Assembly (NCBI GenBank): GCA_018817505.1
Contig: JAHITR010000017.1
Coordinates: 1-40,033 of the forward strand
Length of the DNA stretch: 40,033 bases
Reading direction: 5' to 3'
From: Candidatus Bipolaricaulota bacterium
Lineage (GTDB): Bacteria; Bipolaricaulota; Bipolaricaulia; UBA7950; UBA9294
Part shown: one piece after another, positions 32,780 through 38,647 of the stretch
How positions within the stretch are numbered: the stretch's first letter is position 1
Layout of the letters: every line of letters starts with the position of its first letter
The notes under the pieces: generated by a model
Told to the model about the DNA's origin: nothing
Databases searched by the model: none
What the model saw: only the letters and a program-made list of their open reading frames with translations
Program-made: the position numbers and the translations under genes

Positions 32780-33256
32780 CTAGCGTAATAACAGCCAAAT
32801 GATCAGCACAATGAAGCCCGCTCCACCGAACAACCACATGAAAACTATGCGGCTCACGCCGCGTATCTTCTTCTTTTCGTCGGGATTGAAGTTCGTCCTG
32901 TGGGGATTGCTTATCGAGAGGCGTTGAGATTTTTTGTAGGTCTTGACGTACAGCGACATTTTCTTTTGTCGGCGATAGACCACGGCCAGATTGTGCATGG
33001 CATTGATGAACTTGGGTTCCATTTCCAAGGCTCGATTGTAGGCATATTCGGCTCTCGCCAAATCGTTGCCGTCGATGTAGATATTGCCCAATCGATAATA
33101 AATCTGCGCCTTCTCGAGACCATACTGAAGCGCTTCCACAAGCAACGAAATGGCCTCTTTGTATTCCTTGTTCTTGCGCAGAGCTTCTGCCTTCTCTAGA
33201 GATTCGGTGACGAAGGCAATTTGCTCTTCATGCGTTCTTCGCTCTTCGGTACTCAT
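32780..33256 (-). CDS. TPR protein with C-terminal membrane anchor
   Basis: The 158-residue protein has at least two tetratricopeptide repeats at about 25-100 (EYKEAISLLVEALQYGLEKA, YYRLGNIYIDGNDLARAEYA, NRALEMEPKFINAMHNLAVV). A basic stretch (about 118-132) precedes one hydrophobic segment at the very end (IVFMWLFGGAGFIVLIIWLL). This is the layout of a tail-anchored cytoplasmic scaffold. Binding partners are unknown. It overlaps the uracil-DNA glycosylase gene by 29 nt and its ribosome-binding site is weak, so translation is probably coupled. Confidence 0.8.
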   Translation of the reverse strand: MSTEERRTHEEQIAFVTESLEKAEALRKNKEYKEAISLLVEALQYGLEKAQIYYRLGNIYIDGNDLARAEYAYNRALEMEPKFINAMHNLAVVYRRQKKMSLYVKTYKKSQRLSISNPHRTNFNPDEKKKIRGVSRIVFMWLFGGAGFIVLIIWLLLR

Positions 33257-33842
33257 CGATCCATTTACTCACTTTCTGGATATCCAACCAGGTCAAGTAT
33301 TTCGGACTGCCTTTCTCTCGAGAGGGATTGCGCAACAAGTAGCTCGGATGAAACATCGGGAACAACAGAATATCCCCTCGCCAAGAGAAGAAACTACCAT
33401 GGGATTTCGTAATGCCAGGAATATCAGGCTTCAGCCATTGTGTCGACGTATTCCCAAGCGTAACAATCAATGCTGGCTTGATTAATGCGATCTGAGATTC
33501 AAGATAGGGGAAGCAAACCTCCATCTCCGAATGTGAAGGAACGCGGTTGCCGGGAGGGCGGCATTTCACCACATTGCTGATGTAGACATCTTCGCGCCTG
33601 ATTTGAACTGAATTGAGAACCTCATCCAGCTTCTGTCCTGCAGGTCCCACAAATGGGCGCCCCGATCGATCCTCCTCTTCGCCTGGCCCTTCTCCGATGA
33701 AGAGCAGGTCTGCAGAACGATTTCCTTCTCCAAATACGACACTCGTTCGCGTTTGAGCCAGCGGGCACAGCACACAAGAGCGGACGCGCAGCTCAAGTGC
33801 ATCAAGAGACAGCGCATTGCTGGATGGGCTCGTTTCCTGCAT
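33228..33842 (-). CDS. Uracil-DNA glycosylase, family 4 (iron-sulfur)
   Basis: Family 4 UDG removes uracil from deaminated DNA and is common in thermophiles. The 204-residue protein has four cysteines for a 4Fe-4S cluster (C23, C26, C94, C110), motif GEGPGEEEDRSGRPFVGPAG, NVVKCRPPGNRVPS and the late MFHPSYLLRNP loop with the conserved histidine. The ATG follows AAGGAGCGAC. It lies downstream of tRNA-Gly and upstream of the TPR gene. Confidence 0.93.
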   Translation of the reverse strand: MQETSPSSNALSLDALELRVRSCVLCPLAQTRTSVVFGEGNRSADLLFIGEGPGEEEDRSGRPFVGPAGQKLDEVLNSVQIRREDVYISNVVKCRPPGNRVPSHSEMEVCFPYLESQIALIKPALIVTLGNTSTQWLKPDIPGITKSHGSFFSWRGDILLFPMFHPSYLLRNPSREKGSPKYLTWLDIQKVSKWIDEYRRAKNA

Positions 33843-33895
33843 GTCGCTCCTTGTTCATTGACACTGCAGCGCGAGAACGATTCGACGCAATCAAA

Positions 33896-33967
33896 AGCGG
33901 GCAACGGGATTCGAACCCGCGACCCTCAGCTTGGGAAGCTGATGCTCTACCACTGAGCTATGCCCGC
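33896..33967 (-). tRNA. tRNA-Gly (anticodon CCC)
   Basis: The minus strand folds as a full cloverleaf: acceptor GCGGGCA/TGCCCGC, D arm GCTC-AGTGGTAGA-GC, anticodon stem TCAGC/GCTGA with loop TTCCCAA, short variable loop, and T arm GCGGG-TTCGAAT-CCCGT. The loop places CCC at positions 34-36, reading GGG. The discriminator is U and the genome continues TTTGA, so CCA is not encoded. It lies 40 bp after pgk and shares direction with the downstream glycosylase gene. Confidence 0.97.
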
Positions 33968-33978
33968 ACAATCAACGT

Positions 33979-33984
33979 ATTATA
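33979..33984 (-). promoter_or_regulatory. -10 element of the tRNA-Gly promoter
   Basis: A perfect minus-strand TATAAT lies 11 bases before the tRNA 5-prime end. The -35 region (TTTCGT or TTCGTC, near the pgk stop) is poor, so only the -10 is called. Confidence 0.5.
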
Positions 33985-34007
33985 CCCAACACCAAGTTCA
34001 GACGAAA

Positions 34008-35186
34008 TCAGGCCCGCAAGGCTTCCAGCGCGGGCATCGTCTTGCCTCGCAGCAATGCAAGGCAGGCTCCGCCCCCCGTAGAGACGTAAGACGCGTGTTC
34101 GGATAGGCCGAACCGATCCATCGCCTCTCCGGTCTCTCCGCCACCAATGACGCTATAGGCTGAAGACTTGGCGACTGCTTCACCCAGCGCTTTCGTGCCA
34201 ACGGAGAAGGGCTCGTGCTCATAGGCTCCCATGGGCCCTGTCCAGATCAGCGATTTCGCTTGGATGATCCGTTCGCTGAAGATGCGACTTGTTTCAGGTC
34301 CAATGTCAAACGCATGCCAGCCATGCGGTATCTCGTTCACCGAACACGTCACTGTTTCCGACTCATCGGACAACTCCGCAGCAGCCACGACATCGACAGG
34401 CAGAAGCAAAGTCGTTCCATTCTCCTCGACAATCTGTTGAATCGCCCGCACCTCTTCAACGACCTTGTGATCCACGTCAGAAGCGCCAACATCGACTCCC
34501 ATGGCGTGAAGAAACGTCATGGCAACGCCTCCCCCAATCAAAACCTCGTCCACTTTGGTGGCCAAATCATGCAACGGTCCTAGCTTGCTCTGAGCCTTTC
34601 TCCCGCCAACGACAGCAACATAGGGATGTTGGGGGCCATTGAGCAAGGGATTCAGCGCGGCAATTTCTGCTTGAACGAGGAAGCCCGCATAGCTTGGCAG
34701 AAGATCGGCAATCCCCACAGTCGAGGCATGCGCTCGGTGCATCGTTCCAAACGCATCATTCACAAACAAGTCTCCGAGATTTGCCAACTCGTGAGTGAAC
34801 GTGGGCTCGTTGAGTGCCTCTTCACGATGGAAACGCACGTTCTCCAGCACGAGAACATCGCCATTGGATGCATCAGCAACAGCCCGCGAGACTTCATCTC
34901 CCACGCAGTCAGCAAGCTTCAATACGCTCTTGCCCAAGACTGATTCGAGCCGCGTTGCCACTCGATCAAGCCGCAGTTCGTCGACGACTTTGCCCTCAGG
35001 CCGTCCCAAGTGGGAGATCAGAACAACTTTCGCGTGGTGATCCAGTAGCCATTGGATCGTGGGCAGCGATGCCTGGATCCGGCGATCATCCAGCACCTCA
35101 CCCTCGAGCAATGGAACATTGTAGTCCACCCTTACCAGTACCGTCTTCCCCTCTACGTCGGCATCTTGTACTTTGCGAAGTTCCAC
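34008..35186 (-). CDS. pgk: Phosphoglycerate kinase
   Basis: PGK transfers phosphate between 1,3-bisphosphoglycerate and ADP in glycolysis. The 392-residue sequence has the N-terminal LVRVDYNVPL, substrate histidine and arginine in ISHLGRPEG, ENVRFHREEALN, VGGRKAQSKLGPLHDL and the C-terminal GGGETGEAMDRFGL and STGGGACLALLRG loop. Two adjacent GTG codons are possible starts; the second (35186) sits 6 nt after GGAGG and is preferred over 35189 at 3 nt. In the conserved GGAKVSDK segment K is kept but the text reads GGRKAQSK. It is transcribed from the divergent promoter shared with the LolA-like gene. Confidence 0.97.
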   Translation of the reverse strand: MELRKVQDADVEGKTVLVRVDYNVPLLEGEVLDDRRIQASLPTIQWLLDHHAKVVLISHLGRPEGKVVDELRLDRVATRLESVLGKSVLKLADCVGDEVSRAVADASNGDVLVLENVRFHREEALNEPTFTHELANLGDLFVNDAFGTMHRAHASTVGIADLLPSYAGFLVQAEIAALNPLLNGPQHPYVAVVGGRKAQSKLGPLHDLATKVDEVLIGGGVAMTFLHAMGVDVGASDVDHKVVEEVRAIQQIVEENGTTLLLPVDVVAAAELSDESETVTCSVNEIPHGWHAFDIGPETSRIFSERIIQAKSLIWTGPMGAYEHEPFSVGTKALGEAVAKSSAYSVIGGGETGEAMDRFGLSEHASYVSTGGGACLALLRGKTMPALEALRA

Positions 35187-35229
35187 CACGAGCCTCCAAT
35201 CAGACGATATTTCCCAGTTGTGAACCTTA

Positions 35230-35258
35230 TTGAATGCCCATCAGAAGGCGATTATAAT
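35230..35258 (+). promoter_or_regulatory. Promoter of the LolA-like gene, leaderless output
   Basis: TTGAAT (35230-35235), a 17-base spacer and TATAAT (35253-35258) lie just before the ATG at 35267. The -10 element ends 8 bases before the ATG, so the transcript should begin at or within two bases of it. There is no room for a ribosome-binding site. Confidence 0.7.
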
Positions 35259-35278
35259 GCCCATTGATGAACAATCAA
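35251..35278 (-). promoter_or_regulatory. Divergent pgk promoter sharing the same -10
   Basis: The 8-base palindrome ATTATAAT (35251-35258) provides TATAAT on both strands. On the minus strand TTGATT (35273-35278) is 16 bases upstream of it, so pgk would start near 35244 with a leader of about 55 nt. The minus -35 lies inside the first codons of the LolA-like gene. Confidence 0.55.
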
Positions 35279-36199
35279 AGCCTCATACTTCTTGCCATCG
35301 GTGCGTTTGTCGCACTCATCGTCACTGTGGCTGCAGTGGATCAATACCTCCTAGACGAGCACCCGCCAACAGAAGTCGAAGGACTCATGTGGCGTGTAGA
35401 AAATGCCTTCAACCGAGTCCAGGATCTTGAAGCCACACTACAGATCACTGACGAATCGCAGCCAGCCGAAAACGTACGAATGAAGGTAAAGTACGTCAAG
35501 GGCCCCCCTCCCGTGTTGTCAATGCGCTATGTTCCACCCCAAGACGCGAGTGAGGATCTGTTCATCTCTTCTGTACGAGATGAAACGTTTACCATCCAGA
35601 ATGACCAGCTATTCCATTACATTCCGAGTGAGGATGTGGTCGTAAGCAAACGATGGCCTGGCGTACCACTGGTCATGGTCGGGCTAGGTGTTTTTGACAT
35701 GTCGCAAGTTCGTTCAGACTGGTCTGCCGGCAGGACAGAAATCAAAATCCTCGAAGACATATCTGGATTCTCTGGTATTGCGTTCGCGTCACCGATGTCG
35801 ATTTCCGAGTCATTTAGTCACACGCTAGCGCCATTCGCGCTCTTTTCCAGACTGGATCTCAAAGCGCTTCAGGACTACGCCCTCTCGTTTTCTTTCAATC
35901 CGGATGCCCAGACCGACGAGGCCCAGCCCCATGTTGCACTGGCCAATTCCCTCTTCTCAGACGGCGGAATTTCTCTTCCAGGCAGCTACATCCTTGAGGT
36001 TCGCGACGCGAAATCCAAGAACCTGTTGCGGATGATCTGGATTGACCGTGAGACCTATCTTGTGCAGAAGGCCGTAACTTTCACGAACGGTCAGCGAAGT
36101 GCGACGCTGTTGATCCAGTTGATTACGGTTGACCAGGGATTGTCAGAAGCCGATGTGATCCCTCCACTCCAAGTCGGAGTAGAGAATATCCGAGGCTAG
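35267..36199 (+). CDS. LolA-like (outer-membrane lipoprotein-sorting type) exported protein
   Basis: The 310-residue protein has an N-terminal hydrophobic signal or anchor (about 6-27, LILLAIGAFVALIVTVAAV) with no lipobox cysteine. The rest reads as a LolA/RseB-like half-barrel: WRVENAFNRVQDLEATLQIT near the start and the late IWIDRETYLVQKAVTFTNGQ, the W-x-D-x-x-T-x-L pattern seen in this superfamily. A role in handling lipoproteins or sensing the envelope is inferred. I choose the ATG at 35267 over the TTG one codon earlier because it fits the leaderless promoter. It ends overlapping the convergent DUF151 gene. Confidence 0.7.
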   Translation: MNNQSLILLAIGAFVALIVTVAAVDQYLLDEHPPTEVEGLMWRVENAFNRVQDLEATLQITDESQPAENVRMKVKYVKGPPPVLSMRYVPPQDASEDLFISSVRDETFTIQNDQLFHYIPSEDVVVSKRWPGVPLVMVGLGVFDMSQVRSDWSAGRTEIKILEDISGFSGIAFASPMSISESFSHTLAPFALFSRLDLKALQDYALSFSFNPDAQTDEAQPHVALANSLFSDGGISLPGSYILEVRDAKSKNLLRMIWIDRETYLVQKAVTFTNGQRSATLLIQLITVDQGLSEADVIPPLQVGVENIRG

Positions 36200-36702
36200 G
36201 ACTCTTCAGATTCTGCTTCTGCCCATTCTTTCCATTTGCGAAATTCACCCAAATCCAAGTCATCGTCCACGAAATCATGGAATTCATCTTCCTCGGCAAA
36301 TGGAGATTCAATCGCCTCAGAGCTGAAAACGTCGTCTGCGACGAAGATTTGGCAACCAGATCTCAACGAAAGCGCGAGTGAATCCGAAGGGCGGGCATCA
36401 AATTCCATGACATCCCCTTGGGCATCGCGAACGTAAATCGAGGCAAAAAATGTGCCATCTTGCACGGCCTTGATGATGACTTTGTCGATCTTTGCATCAA
36501 GGTATTCAATCATCTTCTTCATCAGAACATGGGTGAGTGGTCGTGGAAAATCTTCGTTCTGGAGCCCAAAGGCGATTGAAATAGCCTCAGAGTCGCCAAT
36601 CCAAATTGGCAGAGCCTTTCGAGATGCGCGATCCTTCAGTAGTACCACGGGAGAGTTGTTCGAGGGATCGACCAACAGCGCTTTGATCACGACTTCTCGC
36701 AT
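36196..36702 (-). CDS. DUF151 bifunctional nuclease-domain protein
   Basis: The 168-residue protein has the DUF151/BFN domain (about 1-130): VVLLKDRASRKALPIWIGDS, EAISIAFGLQ, RPLTHVLMKKMIEYLDAKID and the signature FDARPSDSLALSLRSG. Members have been described with RNase and DNase activity, and Thermotoga TM0160 is a structural example. An acidic C-terminal tail (about 135-168, rich in E, D) extends the domain. The ATG has AAAGGAG upstream. The stop overlaps that of the LolA-like gene at CTAG. Confidence 0.88.
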   Translation of the reverse strand: MREVVIKALLVDPSNNSPVVLLKDRASRKALPIWIGDSEAISIAFGLQNEDFPRPLTHVLMKKMIEYLDAKIDKVIIKAVQDGTFFASIYVRDAQGDVMEFDARPSDSLALSLRSGCQIFVADDVFSSEAIESPFAEEDEFHDFVDDDLDLGEFRKWKEWAEAESEES

Positions 36703-36742
36703 GTCTAGCTCCTTTCATCATGATAGGCCGAACAGCTACGGC

Positions 36743-36771
36743 ATTATAGCCACTTGCTCGGTACGCAACAA
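36743..36771 (-). promoter_or_regulatory. Promoter of the DUF151 gene
   Basis: Minus-strand TTGTTG (36766-36771) and TATAAT (36743-36748) are 17 bases apart. The start near 36736 gives a leader of about 34 nt with AAAGGAG. It is back to back with the glmS promoter. Confidence 0.6.
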
Positions 36772-36783
36772 TCCTTATGGGCA

Positions 36784-36812
36784 TTGGCGATAGTCCGCTC
36801 ATTCGCTACACT
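36784..36812 (+). promoter_or_regulatory. Promoter of glmS
   Basis: TTGGCG (36784-36789), a 17-base spacer and TACACT (36807-36812) precede glmS by about 23 bases; the hexamers match consensus in four of six positions each. The short leader leaves no space for a glmS ribozyme. Confidence 0.45.
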
Positions 36813-36835
36813 TCTCGCTTGTTCAGGAGGTCAAT

Positions 36836-38647
36836 GTGTGCGGAATCATAGGAATGATAGGCCGTGAACCCGTAATCCCTCTGCTGCTTGAGGGATTATC
36901 CAGGCTCGAATACCGAGGCTACGATTCTGCGGGCATTGCCACCCTTCAAGATGGCAAGCTGAGTCGATTTCGTAGAGCGGGCAAAGTGCGCGACTTGGAG
37001 GCATTACTACGAGGGATATCGTCTGATGCAACGATCGGAATTGGTCACACGCGTTGGGCCACGCACGGTGCCCCCAGCGAACTGAATGCACATCCCCACT
37101 TTGATTGCCACGGAGAAATCGCGCTCATTCACAACGGCATCATCGAGAACTATCTACTGCTGAGGGACGAACTTATCGCGGACGGACATCAATTTGCCTC
37201 AGACACGGATACTGAAGTCCTCGCGCATCTCATCGAGCACTACTTTGATGGAGATCTGCTCCAAGCCGTCTCGGCAGCCGTACGGCGTGCTGATGGTGCG
37301 TTCGCCCTGGCCGTTCTCTGTTCGAAAACGCCGGATCGCATCGTCGCCGCTAGGCGCGGTAGTCCGTTGGTCATCGGGCAAGCGCATGGAGCCAACTACG
37401 TGGCTTCAGATATTCCTGCCCTACTAGGCAAAGCCGATTCAGTCATCTTCCTTTCAGACGACGAACTCGCCGAAATCACGCGAGAATCGGTCCGCATTGT
37501 TGACCTTGAGGGGGCAGAAGTCGTACGCCCCTCTCACCGCGTTCGCACAGATCAAGTGTCAATTCAGAAAGGCGGATACAAGCATTTCATGCTCAAGGAG
37601 ATCCACGAGCAAGATCGTTCTGTGGGTGAAACTATTCGAGATCGGTCTGCGGGCAAGCGCTCACACCATACCATGCTCGAAGCTCCGATCGCTCCGTTCG
37701 ATCACATCTACCTCATTTCCTGCGGAACGGCCTTTCACGCCAGCCTAACTGCCGAGTACCTATGGGAACGCTACCTTCATGTGCCCATTCAATCCATCAT
37801 TGCGTCGGAATTCCGCATGCGTTCGCCTCATTTGTCCAAACGGTCGCTCGTGATCGCCGTCTCCCAATCCGGGGAGACGATCGACACGCTGATGGCCCTT
37901 CGAAGTGCCAAAGCAGCAGGCGCGCAAGTCATCGCGCTGGTGAATAGCGAACAATCCACGATTGATCGAGAAGCGGATGCCTCATTCTATACTCACGCAG
38001 GCATCGAGATTGGCGTGGCTGCCACCAAGACGTTCACCGCGCAAATTGCTGCTCTCGGATTGCTCGGACTTCAGTTGGCAGGCGAACACCTATCTGAGCA
38101 GGAGATCCAATCTGAACTCGACAATCTCGCTCTTCTACCCGGCCGGATCAATGAGGCATTGAAGATGGAAGAGCACGTTCGAGCTATCGCAGAGAAGATT
38201 CATCACGCGACCGACGTCCTATTCCTAGCGAGAGGAGAGCTATTCCCCATCGCTCTTGAGGGGGCGCTCAAGCTGAAAGAGATCTCCTATATCCATGCTG
38301 AAGGCTATCCGGCTGGCGAGATGAAGCACGGACCGATTGCCCTCATTGACGAAGCAACCCCCGTTGTCTTTCTGCTGTCTCGCGGAATCGCATTTGAGAA
38401 AGTGCTGTCCAATATGGAGGAAGTGAAGGCGCGGAATGGGCAGATCGTCGCAGTCACGGATGCACCGAAAGACCCTGGTGTCATTCGTTTGGCCGATTTT
38501 GTCATTCCTGTTCCGGTTGTCCGGGGAATCTCCCGCCCCATTCTATTTACGATTCCTCTTCAGTTGTTGGCCTATCACACGGCCGTGTGGCGTGGCACAG
38601 ACGTCGATCAGCCTAGAAATCTGGCCAAGACAGTCACTGTTGAGTAG
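36836..38647 (+). CDS. glmS: Glutamine-fructose-6-phosphate aminotransferase (isomerising)
   Basis: GlmS makes glucosamine-6-phosphate for peptidoglycan and, where present, lipopolysaccharide. The 603-residue protein starts MCGIIG with Cys2 as the glutaminase nucleophile after Met removal; HTRWATHG and HNGIIENY complete the glutaminase site. Two SIS domains follow (about 280-420 and 450-590) with SCGTAFHASL, SQSGETIDTLMAL, and the end DVDQPRNLAKTVTVE. The start is GTG at 36836, 5 nt after GGAGG; the ATG two bases earlier is out of frame. Confidence 0.98.
   Translation: MCGIIGMIGREPVIPLLLEGLSRLEYRGYDSAGIATLQDGKLSRFRRAGKVRDLEALLRGISSDATIGIGHTRWATHGAPSELNAHPHFDCHGEIALIHNGIIENYLLLRDELIADGHQFASDTDTEVLAHLIEHYFDGDLLQAVSAAVRRADGAFALAVLCSKTPDRIVAARRGSPLVIGQAHGANYVASDIPALLGKADSVIFLSDDELAEITRESVRIVDLEGAEVVRPSHRVRTDQVSIQKGGYKHFMLKEIHEQDRSVGETIRDRSAGKRSHHTMLEAPIAPFDHIYLISCGTAFHASLTAEYLWERYLHVPIQSIIASEFRMRSPHLSKRSLVIAVSQSGETIDTLMALRSAKAAGAQVIALVNSEQSTIDREADASFYTHAGIEIGVAATKTFTAQIAALGLLGLQLAGEHLSEQEIQSELDNLALLPGRINEALKMEEHVRAIAEKIHHATDVLFLARGELFPIALEGALKLKEISYIHAEGYPAGEMKHGPIALIDEATPVVFLLSRGIAFEKVLSNMEEVKARNGQIVAVTDAPKDPGVIRLADFVIPVPVVRGISRPILFTIPLQLLAYHTAVWRGTDVDQPRNLAKTVTVE

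Follow-up and report, generated by a model that had tools for sequence, protein, structure and literature searches.

A putative bidirectional promoter with a shared, palindromic -10 element between pgk and a LolA-like gene, conserved in a family of Candidatus Bipolaricaulota

Introduction

Bacterial bidirectional promoters are known mostly from the start-site maps of a few cultured species, in which a function is hard to tell from a by-product of the symmetry of the -10 element. In those described by Warman, Grainger and colleagues, two opposed promoters share bases of the -10 element while each has its own -35 element (PMC12825309; Salmonella, PMC10268837). The polymerase takes one orientation only, and these promoters often drive the mRNAs of divergent genes, with starts lying 7-25 bp apart, usually 18 bp, although distances of 10 and 23 bp are also common (PMC12825309, PMC10268837). 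Mutual exclusion at the shared -10 has been argued from sterics, while the five bidirectional promoters tested in Escherichia coli were too weak at the basal level to compete, competition arising only once one direction was activated; exclusion need not mean competition (PMC12825309).

A shared -10 with separate -35 elements is also found between pgk and a LolA-like gene in a Candidatus Bipolaricaulota bacterium, within a 40,033-nucleotide stretch of DNA that was analysed as a whole (the window). The proposal of an earlier, sequence-only reading of this DNA that symmetric -10 elements firing both ways are known in bacteria agrees with the above literature (PMC12825309, PMC10268837). In contrast to the usual 18-bp register, the two -10 hexamers at this locus overlap by 4 bp (TATA), placing the predicted starts about 21-24 bp apart, and both hexamers are perfect. 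From the published geometry (PMC10268837) it can be derived that the 4-bp register allows two perfect -10 elements, whereas the usual register does not. The locus further differs from the usual bidirectional promoters in that its LolA-like side appears near-leaderless, with the opposing -35 lying inside the coding sequence of this gene. No report of the family-wide conservation of a single bidirectional site was found in the papers on bidirectional promoters that were consulted.

The locus also resembles the noncontiguous operon described for the men genes of Staphylococcus aureus (PMC7154746), as bfn, encoding a bifunctional nuclease domain, and pgk share a strand, are separated by a gene of opposite orientation and show no evident terminator. 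Unlike in that system, pgk has its own predicted promoter, and the co-transcription of bfn and pgk is a candidate.

Results and Discussion

Gene content and promoter anatomy of the locus

The features of the locus are listed in Table 1. The pgk gene is preceded by a Shine-Dalgarno sequence (GGAGG) and has a predicted leader of about 50-55 nt, while bfn is convergent with the LolA-like gene, their ends overlapping by 4 bp. An open reading frame at 33797-34081 was rejected as a gene, being an artefact of the overlapping tRNA-Gly (CCC). Both flanking genes had been named in the sequence-only reading; pgk is certain from its Pfam match, while the name LolA-like is a weak assignment, based on a match to PF17131 (LolA_like; e-value: 0.026) in two of 18 members and on Foldseek hits to LolA and RseB structures (e-value: about 1e-5; query TM below 0.4) obtained with a low-confidence AlphaFold model (pLDDT 44). 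The protein carries a membrane segment at its N-terminus and showed no match in the PDB sequence search or in NCBIfam. The Pfam and structure matches point to a LolA/RseB fold as likely, but not firm.

Table 1. Genes and promoter elements at the pgk/LolA-like locus (window coordinates; promoter assignments and start sites are predictions)
Feature	Position	Strand	Remarks
tRNA-Gly (CCC)	33896-33967	-	directly downstream of pgk
pgk, phosphoglycerate kinase	34008..35189	-	GTG start; PF00162, 8.4e-138
LolA-like gene (putative LolA/RseB fold, membrane-anchored)	35267..36199	+	ATG start; 310 residues
bfn, bifunctional-nuclease-domain gene	36196..36702	-	PF02577, 3.5e-36
-35 of LolA-like gene, TTGAAT	35230..35235	+	17-nt spacer
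Predicted pgk start	35242..35244	-	7-9 nt from minus -10; conserved T-T just before it on the minus strand
Shared -10 palindrome, ATTATAAT	35251..35258	both	8 bp; TATAAT either way; 4-bp TATA overlap
-10 in LolA-like direction, TATAAT	35253-35258	+	
-10 in pgk direction, TATAAT	35256-35251	-	
Predicted start of LolA-like mRNA	35266	+	from pyrimidine-then-purine just before ATG and column make-up at -2/-1; uncertain by 1-2 nt
-35 of pgk, TTGATT	35278-35273	-	16-nt spacer; family consensus TTGACT; inside LolA-like codons 3-4

The palindrome described in the sequence-only reading is exact in position and sequence and gives TATAAT on both strands, and the two -35 hexamers were likewise found at the claimed spacings. 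The plus and minus promoters each match the consensus at 10/12 positions, and no other promoter-like site was observed in a 4.5-kb scan (33000-37500). Within the window the palindrome alone is weak evidence, occurring once against 0.18 expected occurrences and at least once in 15 of 100 shuffles. The full symmetric pattern, TTGA..ATTATAAT..TCAA, is however present in a single copy in the 2.66-Mb genome (241 contigs), at the pgk/LolA-like locus, while its reversed control has no match in this genome.

As the plus -10 ends 8 nt before the ATG, the LolA-like mRNA would have no leader or almost none. A survey of 400 kb showed no clear peak of such starts at 6-9 nt across the family, and the argument for a leaderless LolA-like message is therefore drawn from the pgk/LolA-like locus alone.

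Conservation across the family

The family set comprises 33 genomes, of which 31 encode the LolA-like protein, the readable loci spanning 12 genera. At 67% and 70%, the completeness of the remaining two genomes is among the lowest of the set, and both also lack a pgk match. The divergent gene pair is retained in 30 aligned family loci and in G006 (31/31), with an alignment that is nearly gap-free from the plus -35 through codon 5 and a constant distance of 8 nt between palindrome and ATG. Substitutions were counted on a tree built from the pgk protein. Each of the eight palindrome columns shows no change among the 31 genomes, against 2-11 changes in each of 31 flanking non-coding columns that lie outside the hexamers; the -10 bases common to the two opposed promoters are thus invariant in 31/31, the relatives bearing out the palindrome proposed from the single sequence. 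An independent genome search retrieved the symmetric pattern at this locus in 31/31 genomes and, across 35 genomes, at four further sites, while the reversed control pattern was found in none of the 35. A chance origin of the palindrome is ruled out by this conservation, together with the single copy genome-wide.

A separate -35 accompanies each direction, with a minus promoter matching at least 9/12 positions in 31/31 loci and a plus promoter doing so in 28/31. On the minus strand, for which the sequence-only reading had considered loss of the -35 in relatives as grounds for abandoning the proposal, the TTG is kept at 16 nt in all 31 family loci. The plus -35 reads TTGA with N17 in most loci and with N16 in L016. 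It reads TTGCAT in three family loci, which lack a good plus -35 and count against a shared promoter.

Two further sites were observed in these genomes. A second symmetric site, TTGACA..ATTATAAT..TGTCAA, with very good -35 elements on both sides, is located in one family genome (G007:C178:924-973), and another promoter with a conserved spacer, TTGAACCCCGCTTCTGATGCGACTATAAT, is common to many family genomes (e.g. G001:C103:1667-1695 and G008:C3:49642-49670).

Constraint on the pgk direction

Bases that serve only the minus promoter are informative on whether transcription towards pgk is itself selected. The left AT of the palindrome falls between the plus -35 and the plus -10 and contributes to the minus -10 only, yet is invariant in 31/31 genomes. 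We know of no element of the plus-promoter spacer that requires AT at this place. Among the matches listed for other sites of the form TTGA-N19-TATAAT in these genomes, most of which were used, AT precedes TATAAT in 5/99 distinct sites, ruling out a general preference for it, and the adjacent base at those listed sites is usually C.

The minus -35 is in turn written in the codons of the opposing gene. All 31 loci use CAA for Gln4, the fourth codon of the LolA-like gene, compared with 117/345 (34%) glutamine codons in the rest of the gene, where CAG is used about two times in three across the family (CAG 228, CAA 117). Codon 3 has T as its last base in 28/31 loci, with five different codons, though it encodes Asn, Ser, Ala or Thr; this fits the minus -35, since TTGA on the minus strand requires that T. 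The exceptions are three loci of one genus with GGG, where the minus strand reads TTGCCC. Third-position changes number two, one and none in codons 2, 3 and 4, where the mean across 280 codons is 9.5 per codon. Their sum of three is the lowest in the gene, the next independent triplet reaching 13. For codon 2 the -35 is probably not the cause of the constraint: AAC is also frequent there in another family, f3, which has no -35 at that place.

Another conserved promoter was considered for pgk and rejected, as a rival minus-strand candidate near the gene occurs in only 1/31 loci. The invariant AT, the constraint on codons 3 and 4 and the minus promoter found in 31/31 loci together say that the pgk direction itself is apparently under selection.

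The locus in other Bipolaricaulota families

The same plan is found in the sister family f2 (two genomes), where the near-symmetric AGTATAAT gives TATACT on the minus strand. In both loci the minus TTG is kept, as TTGACC or TTGATT, 17 nt from TATACT, so that the minus -35 anticipated in the sequence-only reading is also present outside the family.

Family f3 (pgk loci L055, L060-L064, L066-L069, L071-L086, L088-L089, L091-L094, L096 and L104) resembles the source locus in its gene pair and in the mutual overlap of the promoters in a short gap, but differs in having two separate -10 elements, 27-57 bp apart. The pgk promoter there reads TTGNNN-N16/17-TAGAAT (or TAAAAT), while a TATCAT-like -10 is located 5-9 nt before the start of the LolA-like gene. 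As the GTG or ATG of pgk lies 7-9 nt downstream of its -10 in nearly all loci, pgk is apparently leaderless in f3, unlike at the source locus. Given the overlap, two polymerases could hardly sit on the f3 promoters together.

Proposed mechanism and alternative explanations

We propose that the site is a selected sigma-70-type bidirectional promoter with a shared -10 and separate -35 elements, to which we assign a probability of roughly 0.85. The housekeeping sigma-70 holoenzyme would bind the palindromic -10 in either orientation, the far-side -35 setting its direction. From the left -35 the polymerase would proceed rightwards into the LolA-like gene, yielding a leaderless mRNA or one with a 1-nt leader, and from the right -35, in LolA-like codons 3-4, it would proceed leftwards into pgk, yielding a leader of about 50 nt that includes the Shine-Dalgarno sequence. 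The orientations would exclude one another, because only one polymerase fits the site at a time. Bidirectional transcription and its start sites are here predicted from the DNA sequence. Since both -10 elements are perfect consensus matches and both -35 elements are fair, competition between pgk and the LolA-like gene, as expected in the sequence-only reading, is plausible.

It is quite unlikely that only the plus promoter is real, with pgk supplied by read-through from bfn, antisense across the LolA-like gene, and with the minus signals incidental. Gene order lends this some weight: bfn and pgk are direct neighbours of the same orientation in families f5, f6, f7 and f9, with a gap of 23-128 bp, while f1, f2, f3 and f8 have the LolA-like gene, inverted, between the two. 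Noncontiguous operons are known (PMC7154746), and the minus strand from bfn to pgk has no terminator-like site in 28/31 family loci, the remainder not exceeding the shuffled level, although this is permissive only. Read-through leaves unexplained, however, why the minus-only bases of the palindrome are invariant and the CAA codon is frozen, and it may well add to the pgk promoter instead of replacing it. As such, it could be a serious complement in the supply of pgk. With same-strand flanking genes and an opposite gene between them, as observed for bfn, the LolA-like gene and pgk, bfn and pgk may constitute a noncontiguous operon as described in PMC7154746, in which the shared promoter is pgk's own start.

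Two readings would account for the conserved bases by other means. It is very unlikely that codons 2-4 are conserved not as a -35 but because they help to translate a leaderless mRNA or because the protein requires them. The LolA-like ATG lies 8 nt from the -10, placing the mRNA start at or next to these codons, and the frequent AAC at codon 2 in f3 would also fit. Yet codon 4 is not tied to CAA in f3, whose LolA-like gene is probably also leaderless and whose pgk -35 has another location: it is CAG (L055, L071), GAG (L060) or otherwise varied; furthermore, the T of codon 3 is kept across different amino acids, and translation does not explain the left AT of the palindrome. Translation of a leaderless message might nonetheless account for part of the conservation of codons 2-4. 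A dimeric regulator that uses the palindrome as its operator, with no shared -10, is suggested by the perfect symmetry and constant spacing, but is extremely unlikely. The symmetry ends at 8 bp, with complementarity of the outer pairs about as predicted from column make-up and no excess beyond the core; each strand carries an exact TATAAT, with its -35 at a distance of 16 or 17 nt; and the change in the sister family keeps a -10 (TATACT) while symmetry is lost.

Implications

The kind of promoter proposed here is already known; what is notable is the depth of its conservation and a -35 written in the codons of the opposing gene. Across the 31 genomes compared, bases that serve one direction only are constrained, silent sites of the opposing gene among them, which is evidence that both directions are selected. 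The site also represents a defined, short template for the question of competition.

A more tentative suggestion, which we consider rather doubtful, is that polymerase exclusion itself is selected, the shared -10 coupling the glycolytic pgk to an envelope gene of putative LolA fold, with the geometry rebuilt between families. If so, strong firing of one gene would lower or steady the expression of the other, and this coupling would have been kept through a shared -10 in f1 and f2 and through overlapping, separate promoters in f3.
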